Source of the DNA: Jannaschia donghaensis
Lineage (GTDB): Bacteria > Pseudomonadota > Alphaproteobacteria > Rhodobacterales > Rhodobacteraceae
Direction of reading: 5' to 3'
DNA length: 64,000 nucleotides
Assembly (NCBI RefSeq): GCF_001403795.1
Contig: NZ_CXSU01000005.1
Coordinates: 187,244-251,243, forward strand
Of this stretch, positions 22,938-30,943 are shown piece after piece; position 1 is the first letter of the stretch; each line of letters opens with the position of its first letter. Made by a program: the position numbers and the translations under genes. The notes beneath the pieces are model-generated. The model worked only from the letters and a program-made list of their open reading frames with translations. It ran no database searches and was not told the origin of the DNA.

Positions 22938-23678
22938 ATGATCCGAACGCTTCTAACCCGCATGCTTCTCGCCTTCGTCCTGTGCTTCCTGCTGCCCCTT
23001 GCGGCCGCCACCGTCTGGTGGACGACGGTGGACCATCCCACATCCTGGCGTGCGGCCGACTGGAACAGCTCGGGGCTGTTGCCGGCGGCCACGGCCGAGC
23101 CTGCGGCGGCGATCCACGTCATGGCCGCGCGCACCGGTGGCCTGAAGGGGGCGGCGTCGGTGCACAGCTGGCTGGTCTGGAAACCGGCCGGCAGCGCCGT
23201 CTGGACACGGGCCGACGTCGTGGGCTGGGGCCGCCCGGTGCGGCGCGACGCCTATGCGCCCGATGCGCGGTGGTATTCCAACGATCCGGTCTTCGTCGGC
23301 TCCGTCACCGGGGCGCGGGCCGCCGACCTCATCCCGCAGGTCGAAGCGGCGGTGGCGGATTATCCCTTCGCCACCCCGGGGGCCTACGTCATCTGGCCCG
23401 GTCCCAATTCCAACACCTTCGTCGGCCACGTCCTGCGCGAAGTGCCGGGCCTGCGCATCGCTTTGCCGCCCCACGCGGTCGGCAAGGATTACCTTGGCCC
23501 CGGCCTGCGCGCGCGCCGCGACGCGGGCGGTGATCTGCACCTGTCGGTGGGTGGTTATGCCGGGCTGTCGGTCGGTCCGCGCACGGGGGTGGAGATCAAT
23601 CTGCTGGGCCAGACCTTCGGCGTCGACCTTCGCCGCCCGGCGCTCAAGCTGCCGGGGATCGGTCGGGTCGGAACCTGA
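22938..23678 (+). CDS. DUF3750 domain protein, membrane-anchored
   Basis: A 246-residue protein with an N-terminal membrane segment or uncleaved signal (residues about 8-28) and a DUF3750 domain recognised by HSWLVWKPAGSAVWTR, the VGWGRPVRRD and YVIWPGPNSNTFVGHVLREVPGL segments. The HSW and NSNTF motifs resemble those of lecithin-retinol-like or NlpC-type cysteine-fold proteins without a clear catalytic set, so no function is stated. The ATG at 22938 was preferred over the GTG six bases upstream. A hairpin (GCCGGGT...ACCCGGC, 23683-23711) follows the stop. Confidence 0.8.
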   Translation: MIRTLLTRMLLAFVLCFLLPLAAATVWWTTVDHPTSWRAADWNSSGLLPAATAEPAAAIHVMAARTGGLKGAASVHSWLVWKPAGSAVWTRADVVGWGRPVRRDAYAPDARWYSNDPVFVGSVTGARAADLIPQVEAAVADYPFATPGAYVIWPGPNSNTFVGHVLREVPGLRIALPPHAVGKDYLGPGLRARRDAGGDLHLSVGGYAGLSVGPRTGVEINLLGQTFGVDLRRPALKLPGIGRVGT

Positions 23679-23734
23679 CCGCGCCGGGTCGGGAATCGCA
23701 TTGCACCCGGCCCGCGCCGCCGCTACCCCTTGCG

Positions 23735-23857
23735 CCAGACGACGCCCCCGACGGGGGCCGGACAGGTGGCTTGATCCGCGCCGACCCGAATTGGGGGCGA
23801 CAGGCAGGCATCGTCTGGAACCCCGGACCGGGGGCCTTCTTTCGTGAAAGGCCCGCC
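23735..23857 (+). promoter_or_regulatory. Structured leader of the corrinoid operon, candidate riboswitch
   Basis: CCAGACGA (23735-23742) pairs perfectly with TCGTCTGG (23811-23818) and encloses hairpins GCCCCC/GGGGGC (23744-23758), CGGA/TCCG (23759-23778) and CGCC..CCC/GGG..GGCG (23779-23799), then a linker ACAGGCAGGCA. Next, CCCC/GGGG (23821-23834) competes with GGGCCTT/AAGGCCC (23832-23854); the latter hides the GAAAGG Shine-Dalgarno of the first gene (start 23859). GCCCCC (23744-23749) can also pair with GGGGGC (23830-23835). This is the architecture of a translational switch. It lacks the canonical cobalamin riboswitch boxes. Pairings are seen by eye; energies were not computed. Confidence 0.5.
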
Positions 23858-23858
23858 C

Positions 23859-24080
23859 ATGCGCTTCCTTCCCCTGTTTCTGCTGGTCTCGTTCGGCGTC
23901 GGCCCGGCGTCCGCCCATACGGGTCACATCGCCGATCTGGGCGGCCACGACCACTGGGTCCTGGGCGTCGGTCTGGGCGTGATCGCCGGTGCCGCCGTGC
24001 TGGGCTGGCTCAAGGGCGGCAAAAAGGACGACCCCGAGGAGGAGGCGTCCGAGGAGAAGACGGAGGAGCAAGGCGCATGA
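23859..24080 (+). CDS. DUF6732-type small membrane protein, first gene of corrinoid operon
   Basis: A 73-residue protein: signal peptide ending in ASA, then a His-containing segment (HTGHIADLGGHDHW), one membrane helix (about 36-53) and a charged tail (KGGKKDDPEEEASEEKTEE). Size, pattern and place beside cbiX match the DUF6732 family of Rhodobacteraceae. The exposed histidines and the gene's position suggest a part in cobalt handling. Start at 23859 has GAAAGG seven bases upstream, the element hidden in the leader hairpin; a GTG at 23844 would lie inside that hairpin. The stop overlaps cbiX by four bases. Confidence 0.72.
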   Translation: MRFLPLFLLVSFGVGPASAHTGHIADLGGHDHWVLGVGLGVIAGAAVLGWLKGGKKDDPEEEASEEKTEEQGA

Positions 24081-25276
24081 CCGCAGCCCCGAAAACCGGC
24101 GTCATGATCTGCGGCCACGGCAGCCGGTCGCAATCCGCCGTCGACGAATTCGCAACGCTGGCCGATCAATTGCCCGCCTATCTGCCGTCCGACTGGATGG
24201 TTGACTATGGCTACCTGGAGTTTGCCAACCCGGTCATCCGCGACGGGCTGGACCGCCTGCGCGAGGCCGGGTGCGACCGTATCCTTGCCGTGCCGGGGAT
24301 GCTGTTCGCGGCGATGCATGCCAAGAACGATATTCCCACGGTGCTGAATACCTATGCTGCCAAACACGGCATCGCCGTTCATTACGGGCGCGAATTGGGC
24401 GTCGACCCCAAGATGATTCACGCCGCCGGTGCCCGTATCGAAGCCGCGGTTGCGCAGGCCGACGCCGACCACGGCCCGGTGGACCGCCACGAGACCTGCC
24501 TCGTCGTCATCGGCCGCGGCGCGTCTGACCCCGACGCCAATGGCAACGTTTCCAAGATCGCGCGGATGCTGCACGAAGGTCTTGGCTTCGGCTGGCTAGA
24601 GGTCGGGTTTTCGGGTGTGACCTTCCCGCTTGTGGAACCGTGCCTAACCCATGCGGCCAAGCTGAGTTACAAGCGGATCATCGTCTTTCCGTATTTTCTC
24701 TTCTCCGGCATCCTGATCGACCGCATCTATGGCTTCACCGACCGCGTCGCGGACGCGCATCCGGGGACGCAATTCGTCAAGGCCGGCTACCTTGGCGATC
24801 ACCCATCGGTTCTGGAGACTTTTGCCGAACGCGTGATTGAACAGACCGGTGCCAACCCGCCCCCCAATTGCGGTCTGTGCGCCTACCGCACGCAAGTTCT
24901 CGCCTCCGACGGCGATCCGGTGACGATCCCGGCCGAGGCACGCAATCACCCCGCCTTTTCCGACACGCCCCCGCCGACCTGCGTGCTGTGCAAATACCGC
25001 ACCGCCGTTCTGGGATTCGAGGGGGAGGTCGGCGCGGTGCAGGAATCGCATCACCACCATGTCGAAGGGCAGGGGGCCTCCGCGCCCGGCTCCAACGTGG
25101 TCGATTGCACGCTTTGCGACACGTTCTGCACGGGGCTTTGCCGGTTGCAGATGCAGGATGCCCACGACCACGCGCACAATCATGCCCATCATCACGATCA
25201 CGATCATCACCACGCGCCGTATCCACACGCCAAACATCCGCACGGCCCGGAATCGGCGCGGAAGGCGAAGGCATGA
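24077..25276 (+). CDS. cbiX: CbiX-type sirohydrochlorin cobaltochelatase with Cys and His-rich tail
   Basis: A 399-residue long-form CbiX, which inserts cobalt into sirohydrochlorin (or a close precursor). The N-terminal ICGHGSR carries the active-site His14; FPYFLFSGILIDRI (about 204-217) is also typical of the fold. The C-terminal part has four CxxC-like pairs (Cys265/268, 302/305, 344/347, 351/355), consistent with an iron-sulfur cluster, and a histidine-rich stretch at about 362-389, as in other long CbiX proteins, probably storing or delivering metal. It overlaps both neighbours by ATGA. Early cobalt insertion by CbiX is usually linked to the oxygen-independent route. Confidence 0.92.
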   Translation: MTAAPKTGVMICGHGSRSQSAVDEFATLADQLPAYLPSDWMVDYGYLEFANPVIRDGLDRLREAGCDRILAVPGMLFAAMHAKNDIPTVLNTYAAKHGIAVHYGRELGVDPKMIHAAGARIEAAVAQADADHGPVDRHETCLVVIGRGASDPDANGNVSKIARMLHEGLGFGWLEVGFSGVTFPLVEPCLTHAAKLSYKRIIVFPYFLFSGILIDRIYGFTDRVADAHPGTQFVKAGYLGDHPSVLETFAERVIEQTGANPPPNCGLCAYRTQVLASDGDPVTIPAEARNHPAFSDTPPPTCVLCKYRTAVLGFEGEVGAVQESHHHHVEGQGASAPGSNVVDCTLCDTFCTGLCRLQMQDAHDHAHNHAHHHDHDHHHAPYPHAKHPHGPESARKAKA

Positions 25277-25902
25277 GGCCTTACGAAAAAGACCCCGCGG
25301 CCATCTACGCCGCCTCCTTCGCCACTGTGCGCAGCGAGGCCCCGCTGACGCGTTTCCCATCTGACATCGCCGAGGTCGCGATCCGCGTCATCCATGCCTG
25401 CGGCATGGTGGAGATTGCGGACCGGCTCGACTATTCCGACGACGTCGCGTCGTCGGCCATCGCCGCGCTCAGGGCCGGTGCGCCCGTCTATGCCGATTGC
25501 GAGATGGTCGCCTCCGGCATCACCCGCCGCCTGCTGCCGGGCACCGATGTCCGCTGCACCCTGAATGACGCGGACGTCCCCGACATGGCAAAGAGCTTGG
25601 GCACCACCCGCTCCGCCGCAGCCGTCGACCTGTGGGACACCGACGGCGCGATCATCGCCATCGGCAACGCCCCAACCGCACTTTTTCGCTTGCTGGAACG
25701 GCTGGAGGACGGGGCCCCGAAACCGGCGGGGATCCTGGGCTTTCCCGTGGGCTTCGTCGGTGCCGCCGAGAGCAAGGCCGAACTCGCGCAGCGACCCCGC
25801 GATACGCCGTTTCTTACCCTGCGCGGACGCAAGGGCGGCAGTGCGATGGCAAGCGCGGCGGTCAACGCGCTGGGCATTCTGGCCGCCGGGGGCCTGCAAT
25901 GA
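25273..25902 (+). CDS. cobH: Precorrin-8X methylmutase
   Basis: A 209-residue CobH/CbiC protein that moves the C11 methyl to C12 to give hydrogenobyrinate (or its cobalt form). Recognised by RVIHACGMVEIADRLDY with the catalytic His40 region, GAPVYADCEMVASGITR, TRSAAAVDLW, IGNAPTALF and GFPVGFVGAAESK. Length matches the family (about 210). ATGA overlap with cbiX upstream; the stop overlaps a 32-codon ORF that leads to cobL. Confidence 0.96.
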   Translation: MRPYEKDPAAIYAASFATVRSEAPLTRFPSDIAEVAIRVIHACGMVEIADRLDYSDDVASSAIAALRAGAPVYADCEMVASGITRRLLPGTDVRCTLNDADVPDMAKSLGTTRSAAAVDLWDTDGAIIAIGNAPTALFRLLERLEDGAPKPAGILGFPVGFVGAAESKAELAQRPRDTPFLTLRGRKGGSAMASAAVNALGILAAGGLQ

Positions 25903-25997
25903 CCGTGTCTCTGTCCTACGAATATCCACGGCCCACGTCCGACGCCGATCAGTCGTGGATCATCCACGCCGCACCCGTAAGATCCGCCCGTGTCTGA
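25899..25997 (+). CDS. Possible 32-residue coupling ORF between cobH and cobL
   Basis: An ATG at 25899 overlaps the cobH stop (ATGA) and opens 32 codons (MTVSLSYEYPRPTSDADQ...) ending in TGA at 25995, six bases into the cobL GTG-initiated frame. All junctions of this operon use such overlaps, and without this ORF an 87-base gap would remain. It may keep ribosomes moving from cobH to cobL, be a real microprotein, or be a remnant of a lost gene. No homolog is recognised. Confidence 0.3.
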   Translation: MTVSLSYEYPRPTSDADQSWIIHAAPVRSARV

Positions 25998-27195
25998 TAC
26001 CCCCTGGCTGCACATCGTCGGCATCGGGGAGGATGGCCTGGAGGGTCTGACGCCCGCCACGCGCACCATCGTCGAGGCCGCCGAGATTATCATCGGCGGC
26101 GACCGTCACCATGTCCTGTCCGGGGCGATCACGGCCAGACGGCTTGCCTGGCCCAGCCCGTTCGACGCGCTGATCGACCAGTTGATTTCCCTGCGCGGAC
26201 AACGGGTCGTCGTTCTGGCCACGGGCGATCCGCTGTGGTTCAGCGTGGGCGCGCGTATCGGCCGTGCCATTCCCGCCGGGCAGATCGTCTATCACCCGCA
26301 ATTGTCGGCCTTCCAACTTGCCGCCGCGCGCATGGGCTGGTCCATGGCGGACGTCGAAACCCTCACCGTCCACGGGCGCCCGGTGGAGCAGATGATCGCC
26401 TTCATCCAGCCCGACGCGCGGCTGCTGATCCTGACCACCGGGGCGCAGACCCCCGCGCAGATCGCGAAATTCCTGACCGATCGCGGCTTTGGCAAATCGG
26501 CCCTGACCGTCCTTGCCAATATGGGCGGCGCGTCCGAGGCGCGGTTCGACGCCACCGCCGAAGACTGGTCGCACGACGTGCCCGCCTTCAACACACTTGC
26601 CGTCGATTGCATCGCGGCCCCCGACGCGGCGTTGCTGCCGCGGATTCCGGGGCTGTCCGACGATTTGTTCCGCTCGGACGGCACGATGACCAAGCGGGAG
26701 GTTCGCGCCGCGACGCTGGCCAAGCTGATGCCCATGCGCGGCGCGCTGTTGTGGGACATCGGCACCGGGTCCGGCTCGGTCGCGATCGAATGGATCCGCG
26801 CCGCCCGCAGTGCCCGCGCCATCGGCATCGAACCCCGTGCCGACCGCCGCGCCATGGCCGCCGAAAACGCACTGGCGCTGGGCGCACCGCGCCTCGACCT
26901 GCGCGACGGTGAAGTACCGGAGGCGCTCCGGGATCTGCCGGCCCCCGATGCCGTCTTCATCGGCGGGGGCCTCTCGGAGGCAACGTTCGATCATGCCTTT
27001 GCGGCCCTGAAACCGCTGGGCCGTCTGGTGGCGAACGCGGTCACTTTGGAATCGGAAACCATCCTGACCCGGCTTCACCAGACGCATGGCGGCGATTTGG
27101 CGCGCATTTCCGTCGACAGGGCCGAACCCGTCGGCGCATATCGCGGCTGGCGTCCGTCGATGGCGGTGACGCAATGGTCGCTGGTCAAGCGATGA
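25990..27195 (+). CDS. cobL: Precorrin-6Y C5,15-methyltransferase / decarboxylase
   Basis: A 401-residue fusion of CbiE-like and CbiT-like domains. Residues 1 to about 205 are the tetrapyrrole methylase (LHIVGIGEDGLEGLTP, GGDRHHVL, LATGDPLWFSVGARI); residues about 235-401 are the SAM-dependent CbiT part (TMTKREVRAATLAKL, LLWDIGTGSGSVAIEWIR). It methylates C5 and C15 and removes the C12 acetate carboxyl. Start is GTG at 25990, with no strong Shine-Dalgarno, consistent with coupling from the small ORF. The stop overlaps cobI by ATGA. Confidence 0.95.
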   Translation: MSDTPWLHIVGIGEDGLEGLTPATRTIVEAAEIIIGGDRHHVLSGAITARRLAWPSPFDALIDQLISLRGQRVVVLATGDPLWFSVGARIGRAIPAGQIVYHPQLSAFQLAAARMGWSMADVETLTVHGRPVEQMIAFIQPDARLLILTTGAQTPAQIAKFLTDRGFGKSALTVLANMGGASEARFDATAEDWSHDVPAFNTLAVDCIAAPDAALLPRIPGLSDDLFRSDGTMTKREVRAATLAKLMPMRGALLWDIGTGSGSVAIEWIRAARSARAIGIEPRADRRAMAAENALALGAPRLDLRDGEVPEALRDLPAPDAVFIGGGLSEATFDHAFAALKPLGRLVANAVTLESETILTRLHQTHGGDLARISVDRAEPVGAYRGWRPSMAVTQWSLVKR

Positions 27196-27887
27196 CCGGC
27201 ACGCTCTTCGGTGTCGGCCTCGGCCCCGGCGATCCGGACCTGATCACGCGCCGCGCCGCCCGGCTGATCGAAGCGGCCACGCATGTTGCCTATCCGTCGC
27301 TGGCCGGGGGAGAGAGTTTCGCGCGGTCCATCGCCGCCGACCTGATCCCGAATGGGGCGACAGAAATCCGCATGGACGTGCCGATGTCCCGCAACCGCGC
27401 GCCGGCGCAGGCGGCCTATGATGCGGGGGCGGCGCAGATCGCCGATGCGTTGACACAAGGCAACGACGTCGTCTGCCTGTGCGAAGGCGATCCGTTCTTC
27501 TACGGCTCCTTCATGTATCTCTTCGCGCGGCTCAAGGGCCGGTTCGCGGTGGAGGTCGTGCCTGGCGTTACGTCCCTGACCGCCTGCGCCGCCGCCGCCG
27601 CGATGCCACTGACCGCGCGCAACGAAGTGATGATTGTTTTGCCCGGACCCTTGCCCGACGATGCGCTGCGCGACCATCTGCGCGCCGCCGACACGCTGGT
27701 GGTGATGAAGGTCGGGCGGCATCTGCCGCGCCTGCGCGCCCTGTTGGAAAGCGAGGGGCTGGCCGGGACTTACATCGAACGGGCCACGCTGGGGTCGCAG
27801 TTGGTTCTTCCGCTGCAAGATGCCCTCGACGATGCGCCCTATTTCTCCATGATCCTCGTCACGAAGGGGGCCGACCCATGGCTCTGA
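27192..27887 (+). CDS. cobI: Precorrin-2 C20-methyltransferase
   Basis: A 231-residue SAM-dependent tetrapyrrole methylase. Signature segments are GVGLGPGDPDLITRRAARLI at the N-terminus, VCLCEGDPFFYGSFMYLFARL and VVPGVTSLTACAAAAAMPL. CobI/CbiL adds the C20 methyl, the first committed methylation of the corrin route. The ATG at 27192 overlaps the cobL stop; the end overlaps the cbiG-cobJ start by ten bases. Confidence 0.95.
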   Translation: MTGTLFGVGLGPGDPDLITRRAARLIEAATHVAYPSLAGGESFARSIAADLIPNGATEIRMDVPMSRNRAPAQAAYDAGAAQIADALTQGNDVVCLCEGDPFFYGSFMYLFARLKGRFAVEVVPGVTSLTACAAAAAMPLTARNEVMIVLPGPLPDDALRDHLRAADTLVVMKVGRHLPRLRALLESEGLAGTYIERATLGSQLVLPLQDALDDAPYFSMILVTKGADPWL

Positions 27888-29674
27888 ACCCGATTGTCCT
27901 GGCCCTCAACGCGGCCGGGGAAGACACGGCGTGGCGCATCGCCGACGCGCTGAACTGTCCACTCCACGGCCGCGAAGATCGTACCACTGCGCAGATCACG
28001 TTCCCCAACGCCCTCGACCACGCGCGCGATCTGTTTGCCGCGGGCCACGCGGTCATCGGGGTCTGTGCCTCCGGCATCCTGATCCGGGCCATCGCTCCGC
28101 TTCTGGCGGATAAGACGGCGGAGCCGCCGGTGATCTCTGTCTCCGACGACGGCAAGGTGGTCGTCCCGCTCCTCGGTGGACATCGCGGGGCCAACCGGTT
28201 GGCGCGGCAGGTGGCCGGGGCATTGGGGGGGACGGCGGCGGTAACGACGGCGGGCGACGTGGCGCTGGGCGTGGCGCTGGATGAGCCTCCCGTGGGGTAC
28301 CGGCTTGCGAACCCCGAGGATGCGAAGGACGTCATGGCGGCACTGCTGTCGGGCGGCGGCGCGACGCAGACGGGGGAGGCGCTGTTCGACCTTCCGACGG
28401 GCGACGCGGTGGAAATCGCGGTGACGGAGGCTCAGGTGACGGGCGGCCCGGCAAAGCTGGTCTATCATTCCCAACGCTTTGCCTTGGGCGTCGGTTGCGC
28501 GCGCGATGCGGACGCCCAGGAACTTTGGGACAACGTGTCGGCCGTGCTGGCCGAGGCGGGCGTGGCACCGGGGGCGGTCGCGTCGGTCAATACGCTGGAC
28601 CTCAAGCTGGACGAACCGGCGATGAACCTGCTGGCCGCCCGATTGGGCGTGCCGCTGCGCGCCTTCACGGCCGCCGACCTGTCCGCGATCGAGGTGCCGA
28701 ACCCATCGGAGGTCGTGCGCGCGGAGGTGGGCACGGCATCGGTGTCGGAGGCGTCGGCCCTTGCCGCGTCGAAGGGTGCCCTCGTGGTCGCAAAGCGCAA
28801 GACGGCCGCGACGACCGCCGCCCTGGCCCGCGCCGCCGATCCCATCACCCGCCACGCGGGACGCGCGCGTGGCCGCTTGTCCATCGTGTCCATCGGCCCG
28901 GGCCAGGCCGCCTGGCGCACACCCGAAGCCAGCCGTCTGGTGCAGGAGGCGGAGGAGCTGGTTGGCTACGGCCTCTACATCGATCTTCTGGGGCCGTTGG
29001 CGGCGGGCAAGCCGCGCGCGGACTTCCCCTTGGGCGGAGAAGAGGCCCGCTGCCGTCACGCGCTGGAACGCGCGGGCGAAGGGCGCAATGTTGCGCTGAT
29101 CTGTTCGGGCGATGCGGGGATCTATGCCATGGGCGCGCTGGTGTTCGAGTTGATGGCGCGCACCGACGACAGCGCCGTCAGCGCCGCCGCGCGCCGGGTC
29201 GAAGTCGTCTGCACCCCCGGTGTCAGCGCGTTGCAGGCCGCCGCCGCCCGGGCCGGTGCGCCGCTGGGGCACGACTTCTGCGCCATCTCTCTCTCGGACC
29301 TGCTGACGCCCCGCGAAGACATCGTGAAGCGTCTGAACGCCGCCGCGCAGGGCGATTTCGTCATCGCTTTCTACAACCCTGTGTCCCGCCGCCGCCGTAC
29401 CCTCCTGGCCGAGGCGCGCGACATCCTGCTGCAGCACCGCCCGGCGGACACGCCGGTCATGCTCGCCTCGTCTTTGGGCCGGCCGGAGGAGCAGTTTCGG
29501 TATCGCAGGCTGGACGCATTGGACGTGGATGAAGTCGACATGCTGACCGTGGTGCTGGTGGGATCAAGCCACACCAGACTGGTCAAGACCGGAGACGGGG
29601 CGCGGATGTTCACGCCGCGCGGCTATGCCCGCAAGATGACCGGCGGCGATCTGGAAACGGGAGAGACGACATGA
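27878..29674 (+). CDS. cobJ: CbiG-CobJ fusion: cobalt-precorrin-5A hydrolase / precorrin-3B C17-methyltransferase
   Basis: A 598-residue fusion. Residues about 45-130 match the CbiG N-domain (VIGVCASGILIRAIAPLL, VVVPLLGGHRGANRLA, TTAGD); about 200-320 match the CbiG C-domain/CobE (LGVGCARDADAQELW, VASVNTLDLKLDEPAMN); about 333-598 are CobJ/CbiH (LSIVSIGPGQAAWRTPEA, ALICSGDAGIYAMGALVFEL, VIAFYNPVSRRR). CobJ methylates C17 with ring contraction; CbiG opens the lactone in the cobalt-early route. A full CbiG with its N-domain, together with cbiX, points toward cobalt-containing intermediates. Neighbours overlap on both sides (10 bp and ATGA). Confidence 0.93.
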   Translation: MALNPIVLALNAAGEDTAWRIADALNCPLHGREDRTTAQITFPNALDHARDLFAAGHAVIGVCASGILIRAIAPLLADKTAEPPVISVSDDGKVVVPLLGGHRGANRLARQVAGALGGTAAVTTAGDVALGVALDEPPVGYRLANPEDAKDVMAALLSGGGATQTGEALFDLPTGDAVEIAVTEAQVTGGPAKLVYHSQRFALGVGCARDADAQELWDNVSAVLAEAGVAPGAVASVNTLDLKLDEPAMNLLAARLGVPLRAFTAADLSAIEVPNPSEVVRAEVGTASVSEASALAASKGALVVAKRKTAATTAALARAADPITRHAGRARGRLSIVSIGPGQAAWRTPEASRLVQEAEELVGYGLYIDLLGPLAAGKPRADFPLGGEEARCRHALERAGEGRNVALICSGDAGIYAMGALVFELMARTDDSAVSAAARRVEVVCTPGVSALQAAAARAGAPLGHDFCAISLSDLLTPREDIVKRLNAAAQGDFVIAFYNPVSRRRRTLLAEARDILLQHRPADTPVMLASSLGRPEEQFRYRRLDALDVDEVDMLTVVLVGSSHTRLVKTGDGARMFTPRGYARKMTGGDLETGETT

Positions 29675-30438
29675 CGGTCCATTTCATCGGTGCCGGACCC
29701 GGCGACCCGGAATTGCTGACGCTGAAGGCGCAGCGCCTGATCCGGGCCTGTCCCGTCTGTCTGTACGCGGGGTCGCTGGTGCCCGAAGCTGTTGTGGCCG
29801 AGGCCGCTGACGGCGCGCGCGTATTGGACACGGCATCGATGACCCTGGACGAGACCCACGCGGAGATCGTGGCGGCCACGGCGCGCGGGCAGGATGTGGC
29901 GCGGGTGCATTCGGGCGATCCATCGCTTTACGGGGCCATCGCGGAGCAGATCCGGCGGCTGCGCGCCGACGGGATCGCGTACGAGATCACGCCCGGCGTG
30001 CCCGCCTATGCCGCCGCCGCCGCCGCCCTTGGGCAGGAATTGACGGTGCCCGAGATCGCGCAATCCATCGTGCTGACCCGCGTGTCGATGAAGTCCACGT
30101 CGATGCCCGAACGCGAGACGCTGGACAATTTCGGTCGCACCGGCGCGACGCTGGCCATCCATCTGGGAATCCGCAACCTGCGGGAGATCGAGCGCGTGCT
30201 GACGCCGCACTACGGGGCGGATTGTCCGGTCGTCGTGGGATACCGCGTGGGCTGGCCCGATCAGATGTTTCTGCGCGGAACGCTTTCGGACATTCACGGT
30301 AAGGTCCGGGCGGCGAAGATCACCCGCACCGCGCTGATCCTGGTCGGCCCGGCATTGGGAGAGGTGGGCGATTTCAAGGATTCCGCGCTCTACGATCCCG
30401 CCATGCCCCACGTCCTGCGGCCCGTGGCGACGGGCTGA
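29671..30438 (+). CDS. cobM: Precorrin-4 C11-methyltransferase
   Basis: A 255-residue tetrapyrrole methylase. Typical segments are VHFIGAGPGDPELLTLKAQRLI, CLYAGSLVPEAVV, VHSGDPSLYGAIAEQIRRL and PGVPAYAAAAAALGQELTVPE. CobM/CbiF methylates C11. It is the last gene of the run, overlapping cbiG-cobJ by ATGA. A weak hairpin (GCGAA/TTCGC, 30460-30476) about 20 bases past the stop may end the transcript. The operon as seen lacks cobG/cobZ, cobK/cbiJ, cobF/cbiD and the late steps, which must lie elsewhere. Confidence 0.95.
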   Translation: MTVHFIGAGPGDPELLTLKAQRLIRACPVCLYAGSLVPEAVVAEAADGARVLDTASMTLDETHAEIVAATARGQDVARVHSGDPSLYGAIAEQIRRLRADGIAYEITPGVPAYAAAAAALGQELTVPEIAQSIVLTRVSMKSTSMPERETLDNFGRTGATLAIHLGIRNLREIERVLTPHYGADCPVVVGYRVGWPDQMFLRGTLSDIHGKVRAAKITRTALILVGPALGEVGDFKDSALYDPAMPHVLRPVATG

Positions 30439-30568: not shown

Positions 30569-30943
30569 ATGTCCGAGTCCGAGCTTTTCCACCTGCCCGC
30601 CGAAGTTCGCGAAGGTCTGGCCCTGGCCCGGGCCCGCGATCGCAAATCCACCGGGGGCCGCCTGCGCGTTCAGATGGGCGAAGCCTGGTATCCCATCATC
30701 ACCTTTGACGAGACGGGTTTCGAAGTGCCGCTGACGGCCTTTGCGGACGCGCCGCACCTGCGGGGTCTTGTTGAAATCCACGACGGGCCACGCATGATCC
30801 GCACCGTTCTGGTCGTCGCGGGTGAGCCGTCGGGCGATACGATGCGCTATGATTTCAAACGCACCACGGCCCCGCGGATGCAGGCACCGGTCGATTACGA
30901 ACGGACGACCGAGGCCCCTGTAGCCTATCTGACGGGCCGCTGA
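30569..30943 (+). CDS. Conserved hypothetical protein, 124 residues
   Basis: A small soluble protein, no signal peptide or membrane segment. It opens MSESELFHLPAEVREGLALARARDRK and has a compact beta-rich middle (RLRVQMGEAWYPIITFDETGFEV; VPLTAFADAPHLRGLVEIHDG) and a hydrophobic strand MIRTVLVVAGEPSG. GCGGAGGG lies just before the ATG, a strong site. The pattern looks like a PilZ-like or small beta-barrel fold, but this is uncertain and no function is claimed. The stop is four bases from the convergent dipeptidase gene. Confidence 0.75.
   Translation: MSESELFHLPAEVREGLALARARDRKSTGGRLRVQMGEAWYPIITFDETGFEVPLTAFADAPHLRGLVEIHDGPRMIRTVLVVAGEPSGDTMRYDFKRTTAPRMQAPVDYERTTEAPVAYLTGR

Follow-up and report, generated by a model that had tools for sequence, protein, structure and literature searches.

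A 180-nt gap separates the DUF3750 gene (end 23678) from the DUF6732 gene (ATG at 23859) in the window, as the whole 64,000-nt stretch of Jannaschia donghaensis DNA analysed is called here, and it raises the question of whether a corrin-ring operon is led by a regulatory RNA of its own and, if so, what this RNA senses. The first-pass annotation, made from the sequence alone, had proposed an undescribed cis-regulatory RNA of a cobalamin operon at this site, possibly an aptamer for cobalt or a corrin intermediate. Its claim of novelty is supported: the Rfam covariance models, NiCo included, gave no match to the element in the copies scanned, the scans otherwise producing the canonical cobalamin riboswitches of L032 and L159 and chance matches, and the element is apparently undescribed in the sources searched, among them the accessible parts of PMC8632094, PMC3766115, PMC10653944 and PMC9600662, with most subscription journals and bioRxiv outside the scope. 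The features of the locus are collected in Table 1.

Table 1. Features of the element and its operon in the window
Feature	Position	Strand	Remarks
Putative promoter	23701..23729	+	TTGCAC 23701-23706, 17 nt spacer, TACCCC 23724-23729; predicted transcription start near 23736
Conserved RNA element, aptamer-like domain	23735..23818	+	R1 89 bits, R2 75.4 bits (this copy is among the sequences used to build both models)
P1 5' strand GACGA	23738..23742	+	pairs with 23811-23815
P2 hairpin GCCCCC-GAC-GGGGGC	23744..23758	+	covariation in relatives
J2/3 CGGACAGGTG, consensus CrGAxyGGU(U)G	23759..23768	+	with P2 3' strand, downstream leader pairing possible in many copies
P3 5' strand GCTTG	23769..23773	+	partner CAGGC 23805-23809
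P4	23779..23799	+	23779-23782/23796-23799; GA bulge 23783-23784; CCC/GGG 23785-23787/23793-23795; loop 23788-23792
P3 3' strand 23805-23809, junction A23810, P1 3' strand TCGTC 23811-23815	23805..23815	+	
Hairpin CCCCG-GAC-CGGGG	23821..23833	+	between P1 and Shine-Dalgarno region
Sequestering hairpin GGGCCTT 23832-23838 / AAGGCCC 23848-23854	23832..23854	+	over Shine-Dalgarno GAAAGG 23846-23851
DUF6732 gene (PF20506)	23859..24080	+	first operon gene in the window's genome
cbiX (PF01903)	24077..25276	+	constant partner gene; His-rich C-terminal tail
CbiC (PF02570) 25273-25902, then TP_methylase- and CbiG-domain genes	25273..30438	+	remainder of corrin-ring operon

Folded on its own, the stretch 23735-23818 reaches -48.1 kcal/mol compared to -34.2 +/- 3.2 for shuffled versions (z -4.3, with 0 of 200 shuffles as good), and the folding excess is smaller once the leader is extended to 23862 (z -2.3, 4 of 200 shuffles as good). 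The minimum-energy fold of the window copy alone is one long irregular hairpin, unlike the fold supported by covariation. The 8-bp closing stem described earlier (CCAGACGA/TCGTCTGG, 23735-23742 with 23811-23818) was found in the sequence; relatives keep only 5 bp of it as P1, which is lengthened by 23735-23737 in the window's species. The same description had placed three hairpins within this stem, a count that relatives reduce to two, P2 and P3-P4, and a purine-rich linker (ACAGGCAGGCA, 23800-23810), which is present, but half of which is the P3 3' strand and the sequence of which is not conserved. Further downstream, the two overlapping hairpins, one of them covering the Shine-Dalgarno, could both be located (CCCCG/CGGGG at 23821-23833, and GGGCCTT/AAGGCCC over the Shine-Dalgarno of ATG-23859), as could a possible pairing of 23744-23749 with 23830-23835.

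Relatives of the element were sought in 394 genomes of the family, mostly one per genus. A DNA search left 377 of them with some match at E up to 1, from which ten rows (the window and nine relatives) were judged real by eye, and these ten sequences gave a covariance model, R1, that was run with strict filters. R1 matches 108 of the 394 genomes at E 0.01, with one match per genome and nearly all in different genera. CbiX (E 1e-40 or better) is encoded in 119 of the 394, and 107 of these 119 carry the element by R1; all 107 copies lie on the same contig and strand as cbiX, 49-367 nt upstream of the aligned CbiX start, to which the distances were measured. Only one match falls in a genome not counted among the 119 with cbiX; it is a weak one in G044 (L135, E 0.0015) and was treated as false given its score and a fetched stretch holding no tested cob gene. 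Among the 12 cbiX genomes missed by R1, switching the filters off reveals a divergent copy upstream of cbiX in eight, and four of the 119 (L147, L150, L151 and L152) have no clear copy. A canonical RF00174 riboswitch taking the place of the element was also considered for these genomes, but at E up to 0.1 not one of the 12 leaders contains it.

A separate strict-pattern scan of named genomes, some of them the same records as in the sample of 394, returned 65 stretches, 60 of which are confirmed by a second model, R2. The locus includes cbiX in 58 of them; of the two confirmed stretches without it, L247 is cut by the end of the stretch and L250 lies near one. Confirmed carriers include Yoonia, Loktanella, Maritimibacter, Litoreibacter, Amylibacter, Jannaschia, Thalassobacter and Roseovarius salinarum. 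The other five pattern matches, from Haloarcula, Actinobacteria, Acidocella, Hyphomonadaceae and Chloroflexi, score at most 15.7 bits with R2 and are not copies. At class level, R2 matched in 10 of 385 genomes. The element precedes cbiX in G471, G588, G680 and G420, which represent three other alphaproteobacterial families, and a weaker copy (24.5 bits) occurs in G474, of the family of G588 and G680. The other class-level matches comprise two in the window's own family, one (L159) that is a canonical cobalamin riboswitch, and three in genomes with no tested cob gene; L160-L163 were dropped, since not one of the five genes tested for lies within 1.5 kb.

The element thus tracks the cbiX-cob operon, not DUF6732. 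It had been described as the leader of a DUF6732-cbiX-cob operon, of which the cbiX part holds for 107 of 108 copies and the DUF6732 part does not: 26 of the 107 copies lie less than 150 nt from cbiX, which leaves no space for DUF6732, and the link to that gene was therefore dropped. In L115, L116, L128 and L131 the DUF6732 profile found no match; each has a small ORF with His-rich residues 5' of cbiX, possibly a diverged DUF6732. In G420, a full HupE gene (L158 1705-2322) stands between the element and cbiX, in the place of DUF6732. The DUF6732 protein itself carries AHxGH...GHDHW and one apparent membrane stretch, no paper on it was found in the literature searched, and it may be a reduced cobalt-handling partner. 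The CbiX C-terminus is strongly His-rich (HDHAHNHAHHHDHDHHH, window 25150-25275) and is likely a metal store or delivery segment. The genes at 25273-30438 presumably include cobL, cobI, cobJ and cobM, in what we take to be a single operon; 3' of the last corrin methyltransferase gene, a 124-residue ORF (30569-30943) gave no Pfam match at E 0.001.

Conservation of the fold was assessed in an alignment, A2, of 100 of the 108 copies, leaving out the 8 weakest (L133-L140). The fold consists of P1 (GACGA/UCGUC), the P2 hairpin, J2/3 and P3, then an internal loop leading into P4, which has an unpaired GA, a CCC/GGG step and a short loop; copies are about 75-92 nt long, and 75-86 nt among the 100 aligned. 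Since the structure to which A2 was fitted came initially from ten sequences, the pair counts of A2 lean toward it, and slid structures, shuffles and unfitted divergent copies served as controls. Standard pairs fill 96.2% of the pair cells, compared to 81.5% in shuffles and 33-52% for slid versions. Compensatory changes in relatives, on which the earlier proposal had been made to depend, are abundant, with 308 double-change cells compared to 92 in shuffles (0 of 500 shuffles as good) spread over 18 of 22 pairs. By helix, the paired cells and the pairs with double changes amount to 99.0% and 3 of 5 for P1, 95.8% and 4 of 5 for P2, 90.9% and 5 of 5 for P3, and 98.2% and 6 of 7 for P4. The highest mutual-information z scores fall in P3 (23.7, columns 52-96), P4 (17.7) and P2 (16.8), followed by P3 again (14.4, 14.1 and 13.7), and no prominent pseudoknot within the element appears in the mutual information of A2. 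Furthermore, P1 is re-paired in copies outside the models, as AACAG/CUGUU in L146, GACGG/CCGUC in L149 and GAUAG/CUGUC in L156; in L142 and L145 the models recover P1 partly or not at all. The most constrained unpaired parts are the purine-rich J2/3 and the GA bulge. Columns 9 and 99 (window 23743 and 23810) co-vary as A.G, C.A and U.A (z 6.5), which suggests a non-standard junction pair stacked on P1.

Taken together, the element is almost certainly a structured cis-acting RNA and, as far as sequence comparison can tell, it has what is expected of a riboswitch, namely a conserved structured 5'-leader domain with covariation. Its 5' edge agrees with this position in a leader. A TTG...TA pattern stands at a fixed distance 5' of the element in 91 of 100 copies and in only 2-4 of 100 at positions displaced by 9-18 nt, although a generic sigma-70 scan reported no promoter at 23701-23729. 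With such a promoter-like pattern at a fixed distance, the RNA is expected to start at P1. A start downstream of 23742 had been named as fatal to the proposal; by prediction, the promoter-like sequence puts it near 23736.

The J2/3 joint occurs as GAGG, AAGG, ACGG, GCGG, CAGG and some rarer variants. Along with it, the sequence of the leader 3' of P1 varies. The exact complement of the J2/3 xyGG word is present in the copy's own leader in 58 of 100 cases compared to 34.9 expected, a number reached in 0 of 20000 leader permutations. By variant, an exact partner exists for GAGG in 28 of 43, AAGG in 10 of 15, ACGG in 5 of 11 and CCGG in 1 of 1, the remainder being rarer forms; for GCGG it exists in 6 of 9, yet the same word occurs in 54 of 91 other leaders, and for CAGG in 2 of 8, with the word in 23 of 92 other leaders. 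When 150 windows were scanned along the element, the eleven strongest for downstream complementarity all fell in columns 33-42. Duplex energy between columns 33-44 and the copy's own leader gives z -8.9, compared to +0.3 to -1.6 for six other segments, and because these segments have the same kinship and base composition, such factors alone cannot explain the J2/3 signal. This signal persists when either column-36 class is taken alone (z -3.8 and -5.1), and 47 loci whose elements differ in sequence show it too (z -5.6). The duplex extends to 13-14 bp in L041 and L043, absorbing part of the P2 3' strand; taking these bases excludes P2, so that the two folds are mutually exclusive. The window copy, a CAGG variant, has no exact downstream partner for J2/3 and its best duplex has a long bulge, but it retains the sequestering hairpin. 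Complementarity between the P4 loop and the downstream leader gave no signal in a permutation test to which an invariant partner is invisible (z -0.1).

The consequence for translation was modelled in 70 copies, with start codons picked by a script rule at 89 loci. The mean unpaired probability of the Shine-Dalgarno window is 0.36 with the aptamer fold imposed and 0.56 with the alternative duplex imposed (0.22 and 0.52 for the window copy), and the two folds are close in modelled energy, at -55.0 and -53.3 kcal/mol. In six swaps of leaders between genomes, the energy gap widened to 3.5-4.6 kcal/mol compared to 1.7 for own leaders, and the Shine-Dalgarno was unpaired at 0.48-0.51 in the alternative fold compared to 0.56. 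It was more open in that fold in 49-57 of 70 copies with swapped leaders compared to 57 of 70 with their own. As the alternative fold opens the Shine-Dalgarno even with swapped leaders, only part of the effect is specific. The complementarity between leader and Shine-Dalgarno is itself weak (z -1.8, p 0.04). The modelling thus suggests a Shine-Dalgarno hidden in the aptamer fold, and its coupling to the alternative pairing is, in these models, only moderately specific. Mutually exclusive structures in the leader, an early suggestion, find support in the J2/3:leader pairing as a likely expression platform. A two-state leader is well supported by comparison, and element and leader probably form a two-state switch.

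The genes of the operon make the cobalamin riboswitch the natural comparison, and an early remark held that the element is no canonical B12 aptamer. RF00174 has no match in the window at the gathering score (31.5 bits); with E relaxed to 10 it still misses 23640-23900, and with E up to 5 it misses the elements of L155-L158, L033, L043, L078 and L036. The element is about 80 nt long, compared to 189 positions in the cobalamin riboswitch family model, and it is without the P6 side, the GCnACUGU segment (J6/3) and anything like P7-P11. P1 follows directly after P3 in the 100 aligned copies, whereas canonical copies have a GC..CCCCGC.ACUGU segment after P4. By model score and core features, as read from the sequence, the element is not an RF00174 member. 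It is not wholly unlike one either, because the P4-P5/L5 section of some canonical copies appears to recur in the element, and on this point the remark needed qualification. Both RNAs precede B12 genes and appear to share the order P1, P2 hairpin and purine-rich joint; P4 of the riboswitch resembles P3 of the element, and its P5/L5, with a two-base bulge and a CC...GG loop, resembles P4. In L293, for example, the riboswitch L5 (GACCCAAACAGG; GGUGACCCAAACAGGGGCC) is almost identical to the element P4.

The likeness is also seen by the model. R2 matches a canonical cobalamin riboswitch in G717 (RF00174 121.7 bits), of which the stretch P2, AAAAGGGAA, P4 and P5/L5 can be aligned with the element as far as its P3 ends. 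In the 80 kb surrounding the 25 canonical riboswitches that score best in element-bearing genomes, six of the seven best R2 matches are on their P4-P5 (L292 18.6, L296 17.4, L300 16.2, L293 15.5, L294 15.4 and L297 15.2 bits). Around 31 canonical copies (29 from the class, with L032 and L159), only L159 (27.9) and L189 (22.5) exceed 15 bits on the riboswitch, and background matches above 15 bits are L166 (21.0), L177 (18.4), L179 (17.9) and L172 (15.3). With both surveys pooled, 8 of 13 R2 matches above 15 bits lie on the P4-P5 arm, an estimated 1% or so of the searched DNA; leaving out L159, itself selected by R2, the count is 7 of 12. For the canonical copy of the window genome the score is no more than 12.7 bits (E 0.57), and a regular expression for L5 was found in 9 of 26 canonical copies. 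Such likeness is compatible with descent or with a reused hairpin module, and we lean slightly towards descent from the cobalamin riboswitch. The element looks like a translational riboswitch, with about half of the cobalamin riboswitch layout apparently shared with some members of that family. The switching parts seem to agree only in part. In the accessible parts of two accounts, cobalamin riboswitches are described as steering a Shine-Dalgarno or terminator hairpin by L5-L13 kissing, with mutually exclusive pairings as the switch (PMC10653944, PMC9600662). The element, too, has mutually exclusive pairings; the permutation test of its P4 loop detected no L13 partner of such a kissing loop, and its switching strand is the P2 3' strand with J2/3, unlike that of the cobalamin riboswitch.

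Overall, the best explanation is a miniaturised corrinoid-type switch, for and against which we judge the case evenly balanced. The element would act as a switch in the 5' leader of the cbiX-cob operon and would be a reduced relative of the cobalamin riboswitch that retains P1, P2, the purine-rich joint and, as its own P3-P4, the P4-P5/L5 arm. In the modelled aptamer fold, the downstream strand, the often pyrimidine-rich stretch from P1 to the start codon, would be free to cover the Shine-Dalgarno; in the alternative fold, the P2 3' strand and J2/3 take up this strand, a pairing supported by comparison, and in the models the Shine-Dalgarno is then more open. Translation would be turned off, as in feedback, by a ligand that binds in J2/3 and stabilises P1-P4, and we hold this OFF sign to be somewhat more likely than not. 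An aptamer fold with a hidden Shine-Dalgarno is easier to reconcile with a corrinoid end product than with cobalt, activation by which would need the opposite sign. The most likely ligand would be a corrinoid, either cobalamin or a late intermediate, a candidate to which we give an even chance. J6/3 and P6 form the known cobalamin core, and with this core absent intact cobalamin may not bind. A more specific form of the idea is offered tentatively: an undescribed riboswitch class of about 80 nt, in which a cobalamin riboswitch stripped to its P1-P2-P4-P5 half would have gained a new site at the three-way junction and J2/3, sensing a corrin-pathway compound beside the full-size riboswitch.

The same two-state switch could instead bind something other than a corrinoid, such as Co2+, Ni2+, S-adenosylmethionine or an early tetrapyrrole like sirohydrochlorin, with P4/L5 as a reused module. 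The nearest genes are plausibly cobalt-handling (the CbiX tail, DUF6732, and in G420 the HupE that stands where DUF6732 would). The element has no J6/3 core, and only some canonical copies resemble it; moreover, all 76 of the element-bearing genomes tested (of 108) also hold a canonical cobalamin riboswitch, beside which a second B12 sensor looks redundant. We nevertheless regard this reading as unlikely, as the element appears to keep the arrangement of the cobalamin riboswitch as far as P4-P5, control of a chelatase and corrin operon in the OFF direction by free cobalt would make little sense, and neither NiCo nor another Rfam class matches. The NiCo riboswitch resembles the element in a gene context touching cobalt, but it is built on a four-way junction and the element on a three-way one. 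The first-pass annotation had set NiCo aside, rightly so given the lack of a covariance-model match, and had called its junction different, which holds in that the element has three arms, although the junction it drew had to be corrected to P1/P2/P3-P4.

Readings in which no metabolite is bound fare worse. A structured leader toggling the same folds through a regulatory protein, a small RNA site or a thermosensor is improbable; the support covers only the fold and the alternative pairing, and J2/3 and the GA bulge, the parts under most constraint outside the helices, are readable by proteins, but the junction bases are near-invariant in about 100 genera, with one copy per genome and at one operon, and conservation of this kind is what metabolite aptamers of biosynthesis operons usually show. 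A ribosome-mediated attenuator or leader-peptide element is scarcely credible, common as these are in the leaders of biosynthesis operons. A terminator scan did flag the hairpin at 23821-23833, with tail GCCTTCTTTC, as the one hit against 0.3 expected by chance. However, the length of the 100 aligned copies varies by single nucleotides between 75 and 86 nt, which argues against a shared reading frame, and covariation together with a promoter-like sequence at the 5' edge leaves little room for an upstream coding region.

The element would matter in several ways. In the sampled part of the family, which has many marine members, about one genus in four (107/393) appears to control corrin-ring synthesis by an RNA missed by Rfam, and the element may be a new kind of B12-pathway sensor. 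A reduced cobalamin riboswitch would show how small such a sensor can get and would offer a compact B12-sensing part, and should an intermediate or a metal prove to be the ligand, the class of ligand would be new. In both cases, more than 100 natural copies and exactly defined base pairs are available for mutation. Other structured leaders limited to Rhodobacterales are HRC-8-4 and uORFC-8-2, which differ from the element in their genes, cco and cysS, according to the part of PMC8632094 available; the main text of that paper, as far as accessible, contains no cobalamin, cob or B12, and AdoCbl once, for another motif.

The window genome also has its canonical riboswitch, L032 1501-1717 (- strand; G000:C12:47879-48095, 121.5 bits), which precedes a HupE-type transporter gene (PF04955), and the gene after that hupE is CobW-like by eye. 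With a canonical riboswitch at hupE and the element at cbiX, this genome has two leader RNAs on B12/cobalt genes, and a pathway sensed twice could have a separate threshold or a separate ligand for each sensor. In G351, G171, G260, G237 and G132, about 8-9 kb separate the element from the canonical riboswitch; the two are on opposite strands and point apart.
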